DNA from: Nitrospirota bacterium | Lineage (GTDB): Bacteria > Nitrospirota > Thermodesulfovibrionia > Thermodesulfovibrionales > UBA6898 | Direction of reading: 5' to 3' | Length of the DNA stretch: 64,000 nucleotides | Assembly (NCBI GenBank): GCA_016235245.1 | Contig: JACRLO010000014.1 | Coordinates: forward strand, 1-64,000 | Part shown: positions 1 to 17,702 of the stretch, in pieces | Layout: each line of letters opens with the position of its first letter | Numbering within the stretch: the first letter of the stretch is position 1 | Translations under genes and position numbers: made by a program | The notes under the pieces: generated by a model | Told to the model about the DNA's origin: nothing | Databases searched by the model: none | What the model saw: only the letters and a program-made list of their open reading frames with translations

Positions 1-1923
1 CCTGTATTTACAAGACGAAGCCGACAAGCCATTATTAACAGTGGCGAATTAGACTGGAGTGCCATTAACCCCGATATATTTGGCTCTATGTTTCAGGCTG
101 TGATTTCCCCTGAGCAACGTGGTGGCTTGGGTATGCACTATACCAGCGTACCTAACATCATGAAAGTGATTGAGCCACTTTTTATGAATGAATTGTACGA
201 AGAATTTGAAGCAGCGAAGGGCAATAGCAAAAAACTCTATGCACTGCTTCAACGAATCCAGAACATCAAAATATTTGACCCTGCCTGTGGTAGCGGTAAC
301 TTTTTGATTATTTCCTACAAACAACTTCGCAGATTGGAAATGAAAATCTTTAAGACGATGAACAGCTTTGCCTTTTCTAATATCAGTTTGAGTAATTTTT
401 ATGGCATTGAATTAGACGACTTTGCACACGAAATAGCCATTCTGTCTCTATGGCTGGCAGAGCATCAGATGAACCAAGAGTTCCTTAAGGAATTTGGACG
501 AACCAAACCAGCCTTACCTTTAAAAGAAACAGGCAATATTGCACATGGTAATGCTTGCCGCATAGACTGGGAAAACGTTTGTCCAAAAAAGGACGGAGAT
601 GAGATTTATATTTTAGGAAATCCGCCTTACTTGGGTTTCAACGAGCGAAGCAAAGAACAGAAGGCTGATATGGATTTTGCTTTGAACAATATCGGAAATA
701 TTCAACGCTTAGATTACATAGGGTGCTGGTTTGTAAAAGCGACTGATTACATCCAAGATATTAATTCTCGTTATGCTTTTGTTTCTACAAATTCAATTTG
801 TCAAGGAGAACAAGTAAGTCTGCTATGGCCTCATATTTTCTCTAAAAAACAGGAAATTTGCTTTGCCTTTCAGCCATTCAAATGGACTAACAATGCAAAA
901 GGTAACGCAGGAGTTACTTGCGTTATACTTGGTATTCAGAATGAAAATTTAAGTAATAAATTAATTTTCTCAGAAGGCAGGAGTAAAATTGTAAAAAGTA
1001 TAAGCCCATACTTAATAGAAGGCAACCCCGTAATAATGACACAAAGAAAGTCGCCATTATCTAATTTTCCTGAAATGATTTTGGGAAGTAGTGGGATAGA
1101 TGGTGGTAATTTGATATTAAGTTCAGATGAAAAGGCAGCATTCATTAAATCAAATCCTAATTCGGGGAAATTTATAAAATCATTTATTGGTGGTGGTGAT
1201 TTTGTAGATGGAACAGAAAGATTTTGCATTTGGGTTGATGACAACGAAATAAAAGAGGCGTTAAAGATAGAATCAATCAAAGATAGAGTTGATAAATGTA
1301 GAGAATATAGATTAGGAGCAGGTAGGGATGCAAAAAAGGCTGCAAACGTACCGCATAGATTCTTCTACCGAAAACATAAAGATAAAGACGCAATTATTTT
1401 ACCAATGACAAGTTCTGAAAAAAGAACATATTTACCCGTTGGCTTCTTAACAAATAGAGCAATAGTAAGCAATGGCGTTTTTGTGGTTTACGATGCTGAA
1501 CCTTATATGATGGGTTTAATAGCATCAAAAATGCATATGTGTTGGACACAGGCCGTTTCTGGAAAACTTGAATCACGTATTAGATATTCAGTGAATCTTG
1601 CTTACAATTCATTTCCTTTTCCTGAGATTTCAGAGGAACAAAAACAACATATTACCTATGCAGTGCTTAGAGTTCTTGAAGCACGAGAACGCCACTCGGA
1701 AAAAACACTTGCTCAACTTTACGACCCTGATAAAATGCCACAGGGTTTAATGGAAGCACACCATCAATTAGACCTTGCTGTAGAACGCTGCTACCGAAGC
1801 AAACCCTTTGAAAGTGATGAGGAACGTCTTGAGTATCTGTTTAAACTCTATGAGCAAATGATAGCAGAGCGAAATGGAGATTTGATTTTTGACCAAACTA
1901 AGGCAAAAAGGAAAAGGAAATAA
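1..1923 (+). CDS. MmeI-like N6-adenine DNA methyltransferase, 5' end outside window
   Basis: The reading frame is open to the first base of the window, so the N-terminus is missing and the ATG at 88 is internal. SAM-binding motif I appears as FDPACGSGNFL and catalytic motif IV as GNPPYLGF, the NPPY signature of gamma-class N6-adenine methyltransferases. The stretch GLGMHYTS just before the methylase core is typical of the MmeI/type IIL group, which fuses methylase, target-recognition and C-terminal helical regions. The gene lies 2 bp before a helicase gene and probably forms one operon with it and the GIY-YIG gene, acting as the modification or recognition subunit of a restriction-like system. 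Whether a nuclease domain sits at the missing N-terminus cannot be seen. Confidence 0.85.
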   Translation, partial: PVFTRRSRQAIINSGELDWSAINPDIFGSMFQAVISPEQRGGLGMHYTSVPNIMKVIEPLFMNELYEEFEAAKGNSKKLYALLQRIQNIKIFDPACGSGNFLIISYKQLRRLEMKIFKTMNSFAFSNISLSNFYGIELDDFAHEIAILSLWLAEHQMNQEFLKEFGRTKPALPLKETGNIAHGNACRIDWENVCPKKDGDEIYILGNPPYLGFNERSKEQKADMDFALNNIGNIQRLDYIGCWFVKATDYIQDINSRYAFVSTNSICQGEQVSLLWPHIFSKKQEICFAFQPFKWTNNAKGNAGVTCVILGIQNENLSNKLIFSEGRSKIVKSISPYLIEGNPVIMTQRKSPLSNFPEMILGSSGIDGGNLILSSDEKAAFIKSNPNSGKFIKSFIGGGDFVDGTERFCIWVDDNEIKEALKIESIKDRVDKCREYRLGAGRDAKKAANVPHRFFYRKHKDKDAIILPMTSSEKRTYLPVGFLTNRAIVSNGVFVVYDAEPYMMGLIASKMHMCWTQAVSGKLESRIRYSVNLAYNSFPFPEISEEQKQHITYAVLRVLEARERHSEKTLAQLYDPDKMPQGLMEAHHQLDLAVERCYRSKPFESDEERLEYLFKLYEQMIAERNGDLIFDQTKAKRKRK

Positions 1924-1925
1924 TT

Positions 1926-3857
1926 ATGCCTGATATTGTGCATGTGACCTACGCTCAAACAGGGCAAAGCTCAAAAATAAATAGCTTGGGTATGCGTGAA
2001 ATGCAGGAAAAAGCATATCAGGCAAGAGATGCTCAATACCTTTTATTGAAAGCCCCACCTGCTTCTGGTAAGTCAAGAGCCTTGATGTTTATTGCTTTGG
2101 ACAAATTAGTTCACCAAGGATTGAAGAAAGTTATTGTAGCCGTTCCCGAAAAAACAATTGGCGGTTCATTTGGCAAAACCAAATTGAAAGACTTTGGCTT
2201 TTTCTCAAATTGGGAGCCAACTGATGAATATAACCTATGTACTCCTGGAATGGATGGAAGTAAAAGCAAAGTTCAGGCTTTCAAGAACTTTTTAGATAAT
2301 GATGAAAAGATATTGATTTGCACTCATGCTACTCTCCGCTTTGCATTTGAAGAAGTGGAAGAATCACAATTTAATAACACCCTTTTGGCTATAGATGAAT
2401 TTCACCACGTTTCAGCCGATGCCGACAGCCGTTTAGGTGAATTGTTACGAAGTATAATGGCTAAGTCAAATGCTCATATCGTAGCTATGACAGGTTCATA
2501 TTTTCGTGGAGACACCTTCCCCGTCCTATTGCCTGAAGATGAAGCCAAATTCACCAAAGTAACTTACAATTACTATGAGCAGCTTAACGGATACACCTAT
2601 TTAAAATCATTAGGCATTGGCTACCATTTTTATCAAGGAAGATACGCTTCTGCCATTCTTGAAATATTGGATACAGATAAAAAGACGATACTGCACATAC
2701 CAAACGTAAATTCAGGAGAATCAACCAAAGACAAGCACAATGAAGTTGATACTATCATAGATGCAATTGGAGATGTTACAAAGGTTGACCCCGAAACAGG
2801 AATCATATTTGTAAAAAGACATTCAGACGGTAAGCTTTTGAAAGTTGCCGATTTGGTAAATGATAATCCGAGAGACCGAGAGAAAGTGATTACTTATCTG
2901 CGAGAAATCAAAGTACTTGATGATATGGATTTGATAATTGCCTTAGGTATGGCAAAAGAAGGTTTTGACTGGCCTTTCTGCGAACATGCATTGACCGTAG
3001 GTTATAGAGGTTCGTTAACGGAAATCATTCAAATTATTGGGCGTTGCACTAGAGACAGCAGCAATAAAAGCCATGCTCAGTTTACTAACTTAATAGCTCA
3101 ACCAGATGCAGCAGATGATTTGGTTAGGCTATCGGTAAACAACATGTTGAAAGCTATTACTGCATCGCTGCTAATGGAACAGGTACTGGCACCCAATTTT
3201 AAGTTTAAAACTAAACTTTCTGATGATGACAAAGCCGAAGCAGGGGAAATAAAAATCAGAGGGTTTAAAACACCAAGTTCAAAGCGAGTAAAGGACATTA
3301 TTGAATCTGACCTGAATGATTTAAAGGCTACCATTCTGCAAGACGACACTATGCTGAAAGCGATGCCAGGCAATATTGACTCTGAAGTAATAAATAAGGT
3401 CTTAATCCCCAAAATCATTCAAATCAAATATCCTGATTTATCAGAGCAAGAAGTAGAAGAAGTACGCCAGTATGTAGTGGTTGATTCTGTAATTAAAAGC
3501 GGAGAAATTAAAGAAGTTGGCGATAAAAGATTTATAAGAATGGCTGGTCAGTTTGTAAACATTGATGATTTGCACATTGATTTGATAGACCGAATTAATC
3601 CATTCCAAAAGGCATTTGAGATTTTATCGAAAGATGTAACTGCAAAAGTGTTGAAAGTGATACAAGATGTCATTCAATTAACACGAATTCAAGTTAGTGA
3701 AGAAGAGGCTGTATTAATGTGGACAAAAATAAAAGATTTTTATTCTACATTCAAACGTGAGCCTAATCTTAATTCAACAGACCCTCTTGAAAAGAGAATG
3801 GCAGAAGTGTTGATTTATATAAAAGAACAAAAAAGAAAACAGAACAATGTCGGATAA
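1926..3857 (+). CDS. DEAD/DEAH-family superfamily 2 helicase or translocase of the restriction-like triad
   Basis: This 643-residue protein has superfamily 2 motifs in order: Walker A APPASGKS near residue 43, Walker B AIDEFHH near 155, motif III MTGSYF near 185, and motif VI IIGRCTRDS near 360. The DEFH box groups it with DEAD/DEAH-type ATPases. The C-terminal 250 residues are not recognised. It follows the methyltransferase after 2 bp and overlaps the GIY-YIG gene by 11 bp, so the three are probably translated together. By analogy with restriction systems it would translocate on or remodel DNA between recognition and cleavage. That role is inference from context. Confidence 0.85.
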   Translation: MPDIVHVTYAQTGQSSKINSLGMREMQEKAYQARDAQYLLLKAPPASGKSRALMFIALDKLVHQGLKKVIVAVPEKTIGGSFGKTKLKDFGFFSNWEPTDEYNLCTPGMDGSKSKVQAFKNFLDNDEKILICTHATLRFAFEEVEESQFNNTLLAIDEFHHVSADADSRLGELLRSIMAKSNAHIVAMTGSYFRGDTFPVLLPEDEAKFTKVTYNYYEQLNGYTYLKSLGIGYHFYQGRYASAILEILDTDKKTILHIPNVNSGESTKDKHNEVDTIIDAIGDVTKVDPETGIIFVKRHSDGKLLKVADLVNDNPRDREKVITYLREIKVLDDMDLIIALGMAKEGFDWPFCEHALTVGYRGSLTEIIQIIGRCTRDSSNKSHAQFTNLIAQPDAADDLVRLSVNNMLKAITASLLMEQVLAPNFKFKTKLSDDDKAEAGEIKIRGFKTPSSKRVKDIIESDLNDLKATILQDDTMLKAMPGNIDSEVINKVLIPKIIQIKYPDLSEQEVEEVRQYVVVDSVIKSGEIKEVGDKRFIRMAGQFVNIDDLHIDLIDRINPFQKAFEILSKDVTAKVLKVIQDVIQLTRIQVSEEEAVLMWTKIKDFYSTFKREPNLNSTDPLEKRMAEVLIYIKEQKRKQNNVG

Positions 3858-5040
3858 GAAGTCATTACAAGATATATTTAATGATGACCCTTTTGGTTTG
3901 CTAAATATAAAGCCTTCAACCTCGCCTTCAAGAAATGAAGATGAACGACTCATTGCTTCATTCGAAGAGATAAATGACTTCTTCGAGAAGAACAGCCGAG
4001 AACCCGAACAAGGCGGGGGCATACAAGAACATCAATTGTATTCAAGACTAAAATCACTTAGAGAGAACCCGACAAAAATGGAACTGCTCAAAAGCTATGA
4101 CAAGTTTGGTTTGTTAAACTATGAGCAAAAGCAAATCAATTCGTTAGACGACATTTTGAATGATGATACAATGGGTTTGCTTGACGATGATTCGGAAGGC
4201 CTTTTTGACTTTAAACATGTTAGAGAGCAAGACGAAAGAGCTATTGCTGATTTTATTGCAAGACGCAAACCCTGTAGAGACTTTGCCAAATATGAAGAAC
4301 AGTTTAAGGAAGTTCAAAAAGACCTGTCAAACGGTAAACGCAAGCTGCTTACTTTCACAGAGGATAATTTGAAAGCTGGTATTTTTTACGTTCACAATGG
4401 GGTCTTGCTTTTGTTAGAGAACGTAGACTTTGAAGAGGAAGTTCGGCCATTCAAAAGTGGTAGCCGTATAAGAAAAGATGGAAGAACGAGAGTTATTTTT
4501 GAAAATGGAACGGAATCCAATATGCTTTATCGTTCTTTATACAAAGCACTGTTAGCAAATGGTAAAGCAGTTTCAGAAAATATAGACAAGGTTAATGAAG
4601 GCTTCATTGAGAAATTCAGCAACATAACAGACGAAGATGAAGAAGCAGGGTTTATTTATATTCTCAAATCAAAGAGTGACAAGCAAGAAATAAGGGAAAT
4701 ACAACACCTGTACAAAATTGGTTTCTCCAAAATAGCAGTTGATGAGAGAATAAAGAATGCCAGTCAGGAACCGACTTATCTAATGGCTGACGTTAGAATT
4801 GTCATGGCTTATAAGTGTTACAACATGAACCCACAGAAGTTAGAACTATTGCTTCATAATTTTTTCGGCAACTCATGCCTAAACATTGACGTGTTTGACA
4901 AAGACGGAAACCGACACACACCAAGAGAATGGTTTATTGCTCCTTTAAGTGTCATAGAGGAGGCAGTAAAGCTTATTGTATCGGGCGATATTGTTAGATT
5001 TAGGTATGATAATACCAATGAGACGATTATAAAAAGGTGA
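3847..5040 (+). CDS. GIY-YIG (T5orf172-like) nuclease with a duplicated acidic N-terminal motif
   Basis: The C-terminal third has the GIY-YIG pattern: GFIYILKSK near residue 272, LYKIGFS near 293, the conserved arginine in VDERIKNA, and a glutamate in QKLELLLH. This matches the T5orf172/Mug113 branch of the nuclease fold. The N-terminal half contains two copies of an acidic motif, SLQDIFNDDPFGLLN at residues 6-20 and SLDDILNDDTMGLLD near residue 100. Each copy is followed by a DER-[LA]-IA segment, so an internal duplication is likely. The gene overlaps the helicase by 11 bp. It is probably the cutting subunit of the triad; the duplicated motif may be a docking element (inference). Confidence 0.82.
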   Translation: MSDKKSLQDIFNDDPFGLLNIKPSTSPSRNEDERLIASFEEINDFFEKNSREPEQGGGIQEHQLYSRLKSLRENPTKMELLKSYDKFGLLNYEQKQINSLDDILNDDTMGLLDDDSEGLFDFKHVREQDERAIADFIARRKPCRDFAKYEEQFKEVQKDLSNGKRKLLTFTEDNLKAGIFYVHNGVLLLLENVDFEEEVRPFKSGSRIRKDGRTRVIFENGTESNMLYRSLYKALLANGKAVSENIDKVNEGFIEKFSNITDEDEEAGFIYILKSKSDKQEIREIQHLYKIGFSKIAVDERIKNASQEPTYLMADVRIVMAYKCYNMNPQKLELLLHNFFGNSCLNIDVFDKDGNRHTPREWFIAPLSVIEEAVKLIVSGDIVRFRYDNTNETIIKR

Positions 5041-5085
5041 GAATTCAGCCCTGCCGAACCTAAACAATTTTCTATTCATTAAGTA

Positions 5086-5994
5086 TCATTCTATGACTTT
5101 GCTGAACCATAATTTATGCTCTCGACTAATAGCCTTTTCTGTGCTAAATATTATTTCTCTTAATTCAGCTTCTGAAGTTGAATTTAAAATTAGTTTCTTG
5201 AAATCGTTCAGTTCATCCGCTGTCACGCTATAAGTTGTTTTCAGTTCTTCGAATCTCTTGGTTTGTGTCCAAGAAAAAATACTTGCTGCAATTGTTGTAA
5301 AAAACCCCAGATACGAAAGATTAGGAATATATTTCATAAGCACCAAAATCGTTAGCAGCATTCCAGTTACCATACAAATTAGACCCGCCAAAAAATAAAC
5401 CTTGCTGTTAATAGCATTATAGTCTGCTTTCTTTGTGTACCAACGTATTTGGTCGGCAATACGCTGCTTGATATAAATATTTTTTTTATCATCAATGTTC
5501 TTATCAAATGAATTCATAATCCATTTAGGATTATCACTGTCATTGTTAGGTGTCTTTGTAATAGATAAGAATTTATTTATATCAATTTCTTTCTTCATTT
5601 CCTTTATTCTTGCATGGAAAATTAATAAGGCTTTCTCATAACTTGTATCGTAATTTTCATATTTAAAAATAAATAACCAGCAGTTGCTCATGATGCTCTC
5701 AGATAGGAATCTAGCCTTCTGCCATCCTGCCACGTAATTTTCTTTATATTGAATTACCATTAGAATTAGCACAATAACGATAAGAATTAGCTGTGCAAAT
5801 AGTTGTATATTTTCATATTTTGTTATTGGAGGAATGACTGATATACAAGCGATTCCTAACAATAATCCAATTTGCCCTTTTAGGAGTCCCATATACTTCT
5901 TTTGGCATATCTTGGAAATATCATTAAAATACTCGTAAGAATCTGGGCCTATTATTTTTCTATCAAAGTCGTTCTTCGGCACGGGTTTAGTCAT
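5086..5994 (-). CDS. SLATT-family membrane protein with two 2TM modules (DUF4231-like)
   Basis: I place the start at the ATG at 5994, whose ATGA overlaps the stop of the upstream TIR-like remnant. The 25 codons upstream in this frame are only the shadow of that gene's tail. The 302-residue product has two pairs of membrane helices, about residues 42-57 and 62-82, then 200-220 and 226-243. GWQKARFLSES after the first pair resembles SLATT_3, and the DQIRWYTKKADYN segment before the second resembles SLATT_1/DUF4231. SLATT proteins are predicted pore-forming effectors of nucleotide-signal defence systems and often pair with TIR or SLOG sensors. Here the partner is broken, so this may be an orphan effector. 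Confidence 0.75.
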   Translation of the reverse strand: MTKPVPKNDFDRKIIGPDSYEYFNDISKICQKKYMGLLKGQIGLLLGIACISVIPPITKYENIQLFAQLILIVIVLILMVIQYKENYVAGWQKARFLSESIMSNCWLFIFKYENYDTSYEKALLIFHARIKEMKKEIDINKFLSITKTPNNDSDNPKWIMNSFDKNIDDKKNIYIKQRIADQIRWYTKKADYNAINSKVYFLAGLICMVTGMLLTILVLMKYIPNLSYLGFFTTIAASIFSWTQTKRFEELKTTYSVTADELNDFKKLILNSTSEAELREIIFSTEKAISREHKLWFSKVIE

Positions 5995-6233
5995 AACCAA
6001 GCTTTTTGTAGACCCCATCGTTATATTTATAATTGCCTTTTTCGTGCATTGTGTAATCTTCAAGGGCAAATTTAATAATATACGGGGAATAAGGAATGAG
6101 AATTTATATCATCATCCAATTGACAGTCAGCAAAATCGAAGTCAATGTTCTTATTTTCCTTCCATGCTTTCATGAGCCTATAATATTTAATATCAGTGCT
6201 ACTGAAGCCGACAAAAGTTCTTGGCAAACCCAT
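5987..6233 (-). pseudogene. TIR-like (MTH538/DUF1863-type) gene with an out-of-frame internal deletion
   Basis: The ATG at 6233 has a GGAGG ribosome site 7 bp upstream. It opens a frame beginning MGLPRTFVGFSSTDIKYY and reaching DCQLDDDINS, which resembles the N-terminus of MTH538/ThsB-like TIR proteins. The frame then stops at TAA (6075-6077) after nine unrelated residues. In the next frame the family's C-terminus appears: IPYSPYIIKFALEDY and then DGVYKKLGYD, stopping at 5987. About 70 residues of the Rossmann core are missing, judged against remembered family members. The join lies near 6095-6105. The tail's stop codon overlaps the start of the SLATT gene, so the two were once a coupled pair. 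Confidence 0.72.
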
Positions 6234-6245
6234 AATAGCCTCCAT

Positions 6246-6613
6246 AAAATATTATTCAGAAGATTGTAATGTCATACTATACCGCCACATAAAAGCAATT
6301 ATCAATTATCATTGTCTTGTGAAAAACAGGTTTGCTCACGAACACACGTGGTAAAGGTTTAGACAAAAGTAACAAGCGGAGCAGGATTTTGATAGGTATT
6401 CTTGACGGTTGCATTATGAGCGAGTGGTCTCTTAAGGGTCTCTCTACAGATAGCCCTCAGACCGTTTTCACAGGGTGCATTGGCATATCTGTATGACCTG
6501 TGTGTCCAGAAACCTATGGCACCCCCTGATAGACGCATTTTAGGGCTATTACGGCAGGTGGTCTGACCCATCAGGCAGGGATTATGACCCCTTCATATAT
6601 CTCGGTGGTCATC
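6246..6613. other. Intergenic stretch of about 370 bp with no recognised gene
   Basis: This lies between the TIR-like remnant and the Mrr-like gene. It should contain the promoter of the TIR/SLATT pair on the minus strand. A minus-strand frame of 70 codons (6359-6571) is open, but it has no clear ribosome site and matches no family I know. No terminator with a T-run and no tRNA is visible. Confidence 0.4.
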
Positions 6614-7444
6614 TTATGAACTGATGCTCTTCGTGCCGTTACATTTTGGATAAGCAGAACACCCCCAAAACTGTGAACCAGCCATATTACCCTTCTTAGC
6701 TGTTCTCCTGACCATATTCGAACCGCATTTGGGACAAACAGGGCTATCTGAGGGTGCTGCTTGCTTTGTTGCCCCAGCTCTCTGAGGTGCTGTCTTCGGG
6801 GGAGTCAGATTCACATAATCCATCAGCTTTGCCCCGTCAATCAATTCAATAGGTTTATCCTCTGCAAATTGCTTGGCATCAAGGGTAAAGATACCTGTGG
6901 TAATAAAATAGCCAGCCTCATAGTTTAGGTTTGCGTTCATCGCTCCATAAAAATCACGAACCATAGAAAGGCTGACTTTGCTGACCCTATAGTTTTTGCA
7001 TTGAACTAAGGATGTCTTTCCGTCCTTCCTTACTGTCAGGTCAATGCCCCCATCTTTCAATCCCCCTGTTACTTCAACCGAGAAGCCCATTTTATCAAAC
7101 ATTGACCCTACATATTCTTCGAATTCTTTCCATGACAGGTTCTTTAAATCATCAAGGGTTCTTCTTGTTCCAAAGAAAACTGTTTGATTCTTCTTTTTAG
7201 TCGAAATCACAGCATAGCCAATACCAGTGACAATCAGGACAATAGCGGAAAAAATATAGCTGACTTTACCGAACATGTGCATAGCAGGTAGGAACATCAT
7301 CTCGCTTGATTTTGCACCAACAGGGGCTTGCTTGTTTGTCAGGTATAATCCTAACCCAACAAGAAAGAGACTTATAACAATACCAAAAATAGGATTCTTG
7401 AATGCTGCTTCTAAGATGTCTTCAACAAGGCTCTTTTTTCTCAA
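6614..7444 (-). CDS. Membrane-anchored Mrr-type restriction endonuclease with C-terminal zinc ribbon
   Basis: The 276-residue protein begins with two membrane helices, about residues 18-36 and 62-82. An Mrr catalytic domain follows at about 103-200. Key residues are visible: the acidic helix SWKEFEEYV, the metal-binding D135 in GGIDLTV, and the QCK motif at 148-150, together a PD-(D/E)XK nuclease site. The last 45 residues form a topoisomerase I-type zinc ribbon with CPKCG, a later WGCSAYPKC and conserved glycines. Mrr family members cut DNA, often modified DNA. The membrane anchor suggests action at the inner face of the membrane. It stands alone here, divergent from the small Cys-rich gene. 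Confidence 0.82.
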   Translation of the reverse strand: MRKKSLVEDILEAAFKNPIFGIVISLFLVGLGLYLTNKQAPVGAKSSEMMFLPAMHMFGKVSYIFSAIVLIVTGIGYAVISTKKKNQTVFFGTRRTLDDLKNLSWKEFEEYVGSMFDKMGFSVEVTGGLKDGGIDLTVRKDGKTSLVQCKNYRVSKVSLSMVRDFYGAMNANLNYEAGYFITTGIFTLDAKQFAEDKPIELIDGAKLMDYVNLTPPKTAPQRAGATKQAAPSDSPVCPKCGSNMVRRTAKKGNMAGSQFWGCSAYPKCNGTKSISS

Positions 7445-7612
7445 ATCAGTTACCTTCCCCTCACAGAAATCTCACGGGAAATTATAGCGTTATGTGATAG
7501 ATAAGATAAAGACAGCAGGAACAACAAAAATTAATATTTCTGTAATACTCCTGTAACCTTCTCCTTTTAAAATGTTCATAGTCATAAATCTAATAGAAAG
7601 GAGGTAGACAAA

Positions 7613-7816
7613 ATGAACCAAATAGCAAAAGACGCTACTGAAGAAGTATGCCCGTACTGTGATGATACTGCTGATGAATGCAAGGCATCCGTGACATCCC
7701 TGAAAATAGGAGCATCGTTAAGGTTGAAGCAGTGCAAGAGCGAAGCCTATGACAATTGTTCTCTGTTTTTGGCTAAGTGCTTAAGAAGCGGTTGGCAATT
7801 CCGCTACGCTTCTTAA
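7613..7816 (+). CDS. Small six-cysteine protein of unknown function
   Basis: This 67-codon gene has a very strong ribosome site, AAGGAGGT at about 7599-7606, which supports it as real. The product has six cysteines at residues 13, 16, 23, 41, 49 and 56. The opening CPYC followed by C23 looks like a possible metal or redox site. No signal peptide or membrane helix is seen, so it is probably cytoplasmic. I do not recognise a named family. Its 3' end, including the stop codon, is folded into a 12-bp inverted repeat. The C-terminal residues after about 58 may therefore have been altered by that element. Confidence 0.6.
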   Translation: MNQIAKDATEEVCPYCDDTADECKASVTSLKIGASLRLKQCKSEAYDNCSLFLAKCLRSGWQFRYAS

Positions 7817-7818
7817 GC
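7779..7818. repeat. 12-bp perfect inverted repeat spanning the stop codon of the six-Cys gene
   Basis: GCTTAAGAAGCG at 7779-7790 is exactly complementary to CGCTTCTTAAGC at 7807-7818. Part of the 16-nt loop can pair further (GCGG with CCGC). No T-run follows, so an intrinsic terminator is not well supported on the plus strand. It could protect the mRNA 3' end or mark a small repeat element. Confidence 0.6.
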
Positions 7819-7883
7819 GTTCCCGCCTCTTAGTCTAATCCCGCTTTAAAACCCTCCCCTTGCCCTTCCTTGCGTTTGAACGG

Positions 7884-8423
7884 CTATATTGTCCTCACCC
7901 TTGGTCTTGGTACTTCCACTCCTGTTAGAAGCTCCTGAAGCATCTCTATCGGGTGGAGGTGTCTGCTGCCTCTCATCAGGCTTCTGTTGATGTTCTTGTT
8001 CATCTCAAGAACTTTGACGTTCTCCAAGCCTTCTTTCATCTCAATCAGAATCTCAATTTCAAACATTAGCTGAGTCATAGCCCCTAATACCGTCTTGCTT
8101 GCCGTTTTAGCAAACCCCATGTCCGTGTACTCAGACATGACCTTAGTTATGACCTCAAGAGAGAACCCCTCTGCCTGAAGGTTCATATTGAGGTTGAACA
8201 GGAATTCATCAAAAATATTTTGTAGGTTTTCTTTTTTGACCTTTGTGATGAGGAAGGAATACAGGGTTTTCTCATTGGTGAACAGGATACACTTCCTACG
8301 GTCTATCCTCAGTAGGTTGGCGTACCAATTACCGAGACCTTCAGGGGTAGGGCTATCGGGATTTTGGAGGGGAGGGTTTCCGAGTTCCTTCAGGAGTTTG
8401 GCTGTGCAGTGGATTAAGGTCAC
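7884..8423 (-). CDS. DUF6933 family protein
   Basis: This 179-residue protein starts at GTG 8423, three bases after the stop of the AbiU2-like gene, so the two form an operon. The N-terminal part, with IHCTAKLLKELG, LGNWYANLL and DRRKCILFTNEKTLYSFL, fits DUF6933 as I remember it. The fold and activity of this family are unknown to me. No membrane helix or signal peptide is visible. Because it is coupled to a HEPN-type gene, it could be an antitoxin, a regulator or a second effector subunit. That is inference from position only. Confidence 0.65.
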   Translation of the reverse strand: MTLIHCTAKLLKELGNPPLQNPDSPTPEGLGNWYANLLRIDRRKCILFTNEKTLYSFLITKVKKENLQNIFDEFLFNLNMNLQAEGFSLEVITKVMSEYTDMGFAKTASKTVLGAMTQLMFEIEILIEMKEGLENVKVLEMNKNINRSLMRGSRHLHPIEMLQELLTGVEVPRPRVRTI

Positions 8424-8426
8424 TTG

Positions 8427-9149
8427 TTACGAAGTCTCTCTTCTTACCAGTTTATTCAGAACGTCTTCCACATCTTGAATAATTATGTTTCTAAAGTCGC
8501 TTGAGGGAGTGGTATTGGCTATGTTCAAAGTGCGACCATTATTGTAAAGTTCCCAAATGCTTATACTGGTCTTATTAAGAAATTCAATCATAGATTCGAT
8601 TTCAGAGATTGATGTTCTGGCAAATAAATTATCCTCATTACCGACTACTCTCAAGCTCTTATGTCCAAAGATAGCACTTCTAATCTGAATATAGTTCCGC
8701 CTGTATATGTCTCGTTGACCATTTATTTCTTGCTCAAGCTCATCAAATTCGTTGGCTCTAACAATCTGTTCAGGGATGTCTCGCATGTATTCGACTACTT
8801 GGTCAGGGGTTAAGTCCTTGCTTTTTCTAACCGCCAACTGCTCTTTCGAAAATATCGCTAAATTGTTCTTGCAGTAAGCCACCAACTGATAAATAGAAAA
8901 TGAATCATCACGTGAGTCAAATATTCTTCCTAATGTCATGAAGAAATTAACCTGAAAAGAGTTCAACACTCTCTGCCAAAAGAATCCGTTCCCATTGACT
9001 GCTCGGTGAATATTGCCATTTTCAGAAAGAATTTTATAAACAGTTCTTGGAGCAAAGTAACTATCTTCTAAACATAGCACTTCATCCATGAATATATGCA
9101 ATTTGCCTTCAAACTCAGCACAAATCTCTTTAATGTCAATTTTTGGCAT
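8427..9149 (-). CDS. AbiU2-like HEPN-domain protein, possible RNase toxin
   Basis: The 240-residue all-helical protein contains FFMTLGRIFDSRDDSFSIYQL near residues 69-89, a segment typical of AbiU2-type proteins. It also has R157-SAIFG-H163, an R-x5-H arrangement compatible with a HEPN RNase active site. AbiU is a phage-abortive-infection system of lactococci, and HEPN proteins usually cleave RNA. The start ATG at 9149 has a GAGG ribosome site. The DUF6933 gene follows after three bases. The pair is the promoter-distal end of the island nearest to tRNA-Pro. The family call rests on motif memory; cleavage activity is inferred. Confidence 0.62.
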   Translation of the reverse strand: MPKIDIKEICAEFEGKLHIFMDEVLCLEDSYFAPRTVYKILSENGNIHRAVNGNGFFWQRVLNSFQVNFFMTLGRIFDSRDDSFSIYQLVAYCKNNLAIFSKEQLAVRKSKDLTPDQVVEYMRDIPEQIVRANEFDELEQEINGQRDIYRRNYIQIRSAIFGHKSLRVVGNEDNLFARTSISEIESMIEFLNKTSISIWELYNNGRTLNIANTTPSSDFRNIIIQDVEDVLNKLVRRETS

Positions 9150-16428: not shown

Positions 16429-17702
16429 ATGACAGCAAAAGACGTAATCAAGTTAGCGCAGGAAAACAAGGCAGTAATGGCGAACTTCAAGTTCCTTGAC
16501 TATCCCGGAATTTGGCAGCACTTCGCAGTGCCCATTGCAGAGCTGAAGGAAGAAGTATTCGAAGAAGGCCTCGGCTTTGACGGTTCATCCATCAGGGGCT
16601 GGCAGGCGATCAACACCTCGGACATGCTTATCGTGCCTGATGCAGAGACCGCGTTCATGGACCCGTTCATGGAATACCCGACTATCAGCCTTATCTGCAA
16701 CATCGTTGACCCGATTACCAAGGAGCAGTACACCAGAGACCCCCGTTTCATAGCCCAGAAGGCAGAGGCATATCTCAAGTCCACCGGCCTTGGCGACACC
16801 GCGTACTTTGGCCCTGAGGCAGAGTTCTTTATCTTCGACGGCATCCAGTTCGATCAGAACGCACATAGCGGGTACTACTTCATCGACTCGATGGAAGGAT
16901 CTATGTTGAGCGCGAGCACCATGAGGTTGCAACCGCAGGTCAGGCAGAGATCGACATGCGGTTTGACTCACTCGTAAAGATGGCTGACAAAAACATGCTC
17001 TTTAAATACATCGTCAAGAACGTAGCGCGCAGGCATAACAAGACCGCAACCTTTATGCCGAAGCCGCTCTTCGGCGACAACGGTTCCGGCATGCACGTGC
17101 ACCAGTCGATCTGGAAGAAGGGCAAACCCCTCTTCGCAGGCAATGGATACGCAGGCCTCAGCGAGATGGCGCTTTATTACATCGGCGGCGTGCTGAAGCA
17201 TGCACATGCCCTCGCAGCGCTGACCAACCCGACCACTAACTCATACAAGAGACTCACCCCCGGCTTTGAAGCTCCGGTCAACCTTGCCTACTCTGCAAGA
17301 AACCGTTCTGCATCGATCCGTATCCCGACCTATTCAGCAAACCCGAAGGCAAAGAGGGTCGAGGTAAGGTTCCCTGATCCTTCCTGCAACACGTATCTTG
17401 CCTTCTCTGCAATGCTGATGGCAGGTCTTGACGGTATCGAGAACAAGATCCACCCAGGGGAGCCTCTTGACAAGGACATCTATGATCTTGGACCGGAGGA
17501 GCTGGCATCAGTTCCGACCATGCCGGGCAGCCTTGATGAGGCACTCGATGCGCTTGAGGCAGACCATGAATTCCTTCTTAAGGGCAATGTCTTTACCCAG
17601 GATGCGATCGATACCTGGATTGCATACAAGAGGAAGAATGAAGTGGACGCATTGAGGCTCCGCCCTCATCCTTATGAGTTCTTCCTGTATTACGACATCT
17701 AA
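16429..17702 (+). pseudogene. glnA: Glutamine synthetase, split by an out-of-frame internal deletion
   Basis: The first 157 residues are normal type I glutamine synthetase: LGFDGSSIRGW, then GPEAEFFIFD with two metal-binding glutamates. After FIDSMEG (16899) the frame runs into unrelated residues and stops at 16977. In another frame from 16905 the family resumes with [17 protein letters not shown] and continues intact to 17702, including [15 protein letters not shown] and the ATP/adenylylation region. About 52 residues, by comparison with E. coli GlnA, are missing, including the GGNxGxxPxxKGGYFPVPP segment. Either the gene is inactive or the assembly lost about 155-160 bp here. The gene follows glnB. 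Confidence 0.85.

Follow-up and report, generated by a model that had tools for sequence, protein, structure and literature searches.

A dnmA-yeeB-yeeC-type operon for a methylase, a helicase and a GIY-YIG protein at the contig end of a Nitrospirota bacterium

The dnmA(yeeA)-yeeB-yeeC operon has been described as encoding an MmeI-like methylase, a superfamily-2 helicase and a T5orf172/GIY-YIG protein (PMC7261158, PMC9973331), and its gene order is conserved across species (PMC9973331). In Bacillus subtilis DnmA methylates GACGAG in vivo, and the trio was proposed to be a Type I-like or an inactive restriction-modification system (PMC7261158). The B. subtilis YeeB and YeeC are reported to be without stretches in their C-terminal domains that the Vibrio proteins have (PMC9973331). 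This kind of operon is already known, widespread and little studied, and phage restriction by it is disputed between two hosts, B. subtilis and Vibrio crassostreae (the latter as cited in PMC9973331).

The window analysed here, 64,000 nucleotides from base 1 of contig JACRLO010000014.1 of a Nitrospirota bacterium (class Thermodesulfovibrionia), begins with three genes on the same strand:

1..1923, plus strand, MmeI-like (DnmA-type) gamma-class N6-adenine DNA methyltransferase with its 5' end missing (Pfam; alignment to relatives)
1926..3857, plus strand, YeeB-like superfamily-2 helicase/translocase of 643 aa (DEAD, ResIII; close relatives in plasmids and genomes)
3847..5040, plus strand, YeeC-like T5orf172/GIY-YIG putative nuclease of 397 aa (MUG113, T5orf172)

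A gap of 2 nt separates the methylase stop from the helicase start, and the start of the GIY-YIG gene overlaps the helicase stop by 11 nt. The Pfam matches were MmeI_Mtase (3.8e-109), MmeI_TRD (1.2e-72) and MmeI_C (3.6e-24) for the methylase, DEAD (8.7e-08) and ResIII (2.5e-06) for the helicase, and MUG113 (5.4e-14) and T5orf172 (2.5e-11) for the GIY-YIG protein, which bears out the triad of overlapping or adjacent genes claimed in a preliminary description of this DNA. That description could give the triad no established system name. Assigned by families, gene order and published description, the trio is identified as a dnmA(yeeA)-yeeB-yeeC operon, and so matches a system already named (PMC7261158, PMC9973331), an identity that the description itself had set down beforehand as speaking against its claim. 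Scanning 1800-5300 for promoters and terminators yielded no more matches than chance would.

The methylase frame is open at the window edge and 640 aa of it are visible. Because the window begins at the first base of the contig, the truncation is an artefact of the assembly. The window copy aligns with relatives of about 895 aa from their residue 250-257 onward, which leaves about 253 N-terminal residues missing and agrees with the cut gene reported earlier. When the missing N-terminus was searched for in the bacterium's own genome (MmeI_N, MmeI_hel and the N-terminus of a relative), only a 26-residue overlap at the contig edge was obtained.

It had been suspected that this unseen part could hold a nuclease domain, which is unlikely, as the relatives retain the N-terminal region without the D...ExK motif. 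A profile of the N-termini of 42 intact relatives matches MmeI (5hr4) at 4.6e-49 and covers its cleavage region, and in it D70 of MmeI is mostly replaced by E, E80 by K or R (in 38 of the 42) and K82 by a gap. Cutting by MmeI requires each of D70, E80 and K82 (PMC4833311). As a positive control, five stand-alone MmeI-like enzymes of the same class were aligned, and at this same position all five were found to keep the motif (ID, then EHK nine residues further on). The MmeI nuclease motif was thus lost in the clade of the trio, a loss inferred for the window copy from its relatives because those residues are missing here and were not recovered from the rest of the genome. For a model of the methylase N-terminus, the Foldseek match to MmeI spans only about 139 columns, and it is uninformative on the nuclease because the cleavage domain of MmeI is not ordered in the crystal.

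These sequences also bear on the possibility of a self-contained Type IIL/IIG enzyme placed beside two unrelated neighbours. PADLOC assigns the methylase to REase_MTase_IIG (6.8e-246), a label in line with such an enzyme; the relatives contradict it, since they are without the motif that the stand-alone enzymes keep, and for the 42 relatives the self-contained reading was rejected. As the helicase and GIY-YIG genes are moreover conserved partners of the methylase, we consider this explanation scarcely credible for the present locus. In PADLOC-DB 2.0 the helicase and the nuclease gave weak matches only. Given the motif's absence from the relatives and its presence in the stand-alone enzymes, cutting, if it occurs, would most likely be the task of the GIY-YIG protein.

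The visible part of the methylase carries the following elements:

277..297, plus strand, motif I DPACGSG (SAM binding) at residues 93-99, with every position conserved in 58-59 of 59 sequences
619..630, plus strand, motif IV NPPY (adenine methylation), residues 207-210, NPP in 59 of 59 sequences
1570..1584, plus strand, specificity residues equivalent to MmeI E806-S-R808-I-R810 (by alignment; code from PMC4833311)

The target recognition domain (TRD) is more divergent than the methyltransferase domain (33-60% against 48-69% identity with nine relatives), as would be expected of a specificity element. In the MmeI family E806 and R808 exclusively specify C:G at base 6 (PMC4833311), and the window methylase has E and R at the corresponding positions. 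It also has the equivalent of R810 and a small residue (G) at that of MmeI 774, a position placed by eye from the alignments, and this combination fits a purine at base 4 (PMC4833311). Because the specificity residues follow the MmeI code, C is predicted at position 6 and a purine at position 4, suggesting 5'-NNNRAC-3' as target with the A of base 5 methylated. Among the aligned methylases the pairs at 806/808 were K/D (27), E/R (22) and a few others.

In the helicase and the GIY-YIG protein the following elements were recognized:

2052..2075, plus strand, Walker A, APPASGKS (PPASGKS kept in at least 95% of 84 helicases)
2394..2405, plus strand, helicase motif II, DEFH (kept in at least 95% of the 84)
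3030..3053, plus strand, helicase motif VI, QIIGRCTR (QIIGR.TR kept in at least 95% of the 84)
3720..3827, plus strand, C-terminal helical module of the helicase, residues 599-634 (hhalign against the nuclease N-terminus)
3961..4065, plus strand, N-terminal helical module of the GIY-YIG protein, residues 39-73 (hhalign against the helicase tail)
4648..4974, plus strand, GIY-YIG-type catalytic domain (invariant residues in 51 sequences)

The helicase motif MTGS is intact beside APPASGKS, DEFH and QIIGRCTR. In the GIY-YIG domain G268, Y271, K290, I291, G292, R301, E333, H337 and E361-W362-F363 are invariant in the 51 sequences. Foldseek of the YeeC model returned no significant solved relative (the pTM of the model is low, 0.39), and we found no published report of cleavage by YeeC. 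Some relatives encode the GIY-YIG protein in two parts, a short N-terminal ORF (about 92-126 aa) and a second ORF for the C-terminal nuclease part, with the split ORFs at 7936-9138 in locus L002, 7930-9133 in L003, 7919-9094 in L051 and 6588-7824 in L072.

The invariance of R301, E333 and the GIY/KIG residues argues for catalysis by the GIY-YIG protein. It speaks against a BREX-like exclusion, in which the methylase would mark self, and the motor and the GIY-YIG protein would block the replication of unmarked phage DNA without cutting. BREX, too, relies on methylating a non-palindromic six-base site, and the methylase shows a weak similarity to PglX models (38.7 bits, the cut-off being 500). 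On the other hand no PglZ, BrxC or BrxL family was found among the seven proteins scanned, and we regard an exclusion of this kind as improbable.

The helicase tail and the N-terminus of the nuclease are related to each other at an E of about 1e-6 in the hhalign profile comparison, the controls (non-overlapping windows, reversed) giving E values of 0.06 or worse. No earlier report of this common helical module was found in the open papers searched. We would guess that it may be a docking element between motor and nuclease.

The recurrence of the triad was evaluated in two ways. Among the loci of the 80 best helicase relatives on genome contigs, together with six on plasmids, nearly all have the GIY-YIG gene after the helicase and most have the methylase before it. 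On one short contig (L049, 1156-7013) the order is helicase, GIY-YIG and then methylase. As the 80 loci had been selected by their helicase, a second test queried 230 genomes of the class for each of the three proteins independently. The helicase and the GIY-YIG protein turned up in the same three of the 230 genomes and in no others of them, always as neighbours, and MmeI-like methylases without the two partners were found in 14 further genomes. The recurrence claimed earlier is thereby upheld, with a gene order kept in most of the loci and a helicase and GIY-YIG protein that are linked in the class.

The operon is widespread, since loci with relatives of the trio belong to many bacterial phyla and to one Methanosarcinaceae archaeon (a MAG), and hundreds of plasmid records contain a relative of the helicase (263) or of the nuclease (229). 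No match was found in E. coli genomes searched at megablast sensitivity, phage records contained no YeeC relative, and the methylase relatives in phage records are all below 60% identity. Compared with a same-order relative (G039), dN/dS was 0.18 for the methylase, 0.04 for the helicase and 0.06 for the nuclease, values that are rough because dS is saturated at 1.6-2.2. Judged from these ratios the three genes are under purifying selection, and together with the many phyla this indicates an association far beyond chance. As far as it is visible the trio of the window is no decayed copy.

The published tests of function do not agree with each other. In B. subtilis, deletions of dnmA, yeeB and yeeC left phage plating unchanged (PMC9973331), transformation was unchanged by deletion of dnmA (PMC7261158, PMC9973331) and phages show no avoidance of the DnmA motif (PMC7261158, PMC9973331). 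In V. crassostreae, deleting dnmA or yeeB raised the sensitivity to some phages (as cited in PMC9973331). Of the complete restriction-like defence unit proposed in the preliminary description, the restriction-like composition stands, and the complete defence unit is unproven, the result being negative in one host and, as far as the citing paper reports it, positive in the other.

The B. subtilis deletions, with no effect on phage or DNA uptake, are in accordance with a relict restriction system, of the kind proposed for the DnmA of B. subtilis, in which the methylase has come to serve as an orphan epigenetic regulator, and in B. subtilis m6A at GACGAG does affect gene expression (PMC7261158, PMC9973331). 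However, the genes of the window are all open, their catalytic motifs are kept, and the motor and the nuclease have dN/dS ratios of 0.04-0.06. Helicase and nuclease also persist together in each genome of the class that has either, and the proteins tested in B. subtilis are those reported without the stretches present in Vibrio. A relict is in our view unlikely.

Intact motifs, conserved linkage and the loss of the MmeI nuclease motif in relatives favour instead a restriction system made by the whole trio, and we think it probable that operons of the DnmA-YeeB-YeeC type work as a multi-subunit, ATP-dependent, Type I/III-like restriction-modification system, which would probably destroy unmarked foreign DNA. 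The methylase would read an asymmetric site ending in RAC and mark the A on one strand. At unmarked sites it would act as the specificity subunit that loads the YeeB motor, and YeeB would translocate and bring in or activate the YeeC nuclease to cut. With the mark confined to one strand of an asymmetric site, replication yields at each site one daughter that carries no mark at all, a problem that MmeI-type, Type III and Type ISP enzymes must each get round. One way to protect the host could be a translocating motor that requires two sites in opposite orientation to come into contact, as Type III and Type ISP enzymes do. Since one-strand marking needs a workaround and a site-contact motor is one, we favour this division into methylase specificity, YeeB translocase and YeeC nuclease. 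With an apparently intact operon and a partly predicted target (NNNRAC), the locus offers a direct test of restriction.

Another feature of these operons concerns the junction between methylase and helicase, which contains more than 250 bp of extra sequence in 36 of the 67 genome loci having both genes in order, a fraction that is descriptive because the 67 loci are phylogenetically non-independent. Such a gap is present at the helicase-nuclease junction in only one of 79 loci. The ORFs of at least 80 aa in this slot are on the operon strand in 69 of 72 cases, often overlapping or abutting a neighbour. Their families include AlbA_2/Schlafen, RhuM, BRO-N, Fic, PDC-S06 ATPases and one complete Gabija pair. 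Examples of filled slots, from the range L008-L087, are as follows:

2265-5955, in locus L034
1793-5998, in locus L042
4199-5050, in locus L089

In the window the slot is empty, with two bases only, and a same-order relative with a helicase 88% identical has a BRO-N gene there. In a same-order relative (L089) an ORF at 411-1463, directly 5' of an intact methylase, has a SIR2-like GAGFS motif recognized by eye and no Pfam match. The cargo slot looks new, no earlier report having been found in the open papers searched, and rlo/mlo genes occupy a similar position in the Type I hsd regions of Campylobacter (PMC2928727, PMC9769813). We tentatively suggest, as a possibility and with some doubt, that the dnmA-yeeB junction is a dedicated integration slot into which unrelated defence or regulatory genes are repeatedly exchanged, the operon serving as their carrier, and that the module common to motor and nuclease is the docking interface of a separate-nuclease, Type I-like machine meriting its own restriction type.

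The GC content is 35-37% over 1-6000 and about 51% further in, and helicase and nuclease were absent from seven genomes of the same genus. Most likely the trio was horizontally acquired and lies in a defence island at the contig end. It is followed by a defence-like run:

5086-9149, minus strand, SLATT double-domain membrane protein, Mrr-like nuclease with zinc ribbon, DUF6933 (PDC-S63) and AbiU2 HEPN

Further in, a glutamine synthetase at 16429-17702 is broken into two overlapping frames of 182 and 248 aa, which suggests a frameshift or a sequencing error.

Among the known systems, two were rejected by their missing families. For BREX no PglZ or BrxC match was found among the seven proteins scanned and the PglX models stayed far below cut-off; a 2026 BREX survey, searched by a set of terms, gave no mention of the trio. 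For DISARM there was no match to DrmA, DrmB (DUF1998) or DrmC (PLD), only a weak DrmMI similarity of the methylase. MmeI, a Type IIL enzyme (PDB 5hr4, PMC4833311), is alike in its N-terminal region and spacer, gamma-class methyltransferase, TRD, C-terminal bundle and specificity positions, but it carries D70/E80/K82 and cuts on its own, needing neither a motor nor a second nuclease. The Type I (hsd) operons likewise combine a methylase, a superfamily-2 motor and a nuclease, and may have accessory genes inside the operon (Campylobacter rlo/mlo; PMC2928727, PMC9769813). The trio differs from Type I proper, which was rejected, in having its TRD within the methylase, no HsdS among the proteins scanned, and as nuclease a GIY-YIG protein encoded by a separate gene and not fused to the motor. 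The homologues of V. crassostreae, where deletion raised the sensitivity to some phages, form by description the same trio (cited in PMC9973331). The DnmA-YeeB-YeeC of B. subtilis shares the gene order, the three families and, in close relatives of the window methylase, an N-terminus without the endonuclease motif, whereas its target GACGAG ends in G and that of the window methylase is predicted, from E806/R808, to end in C.
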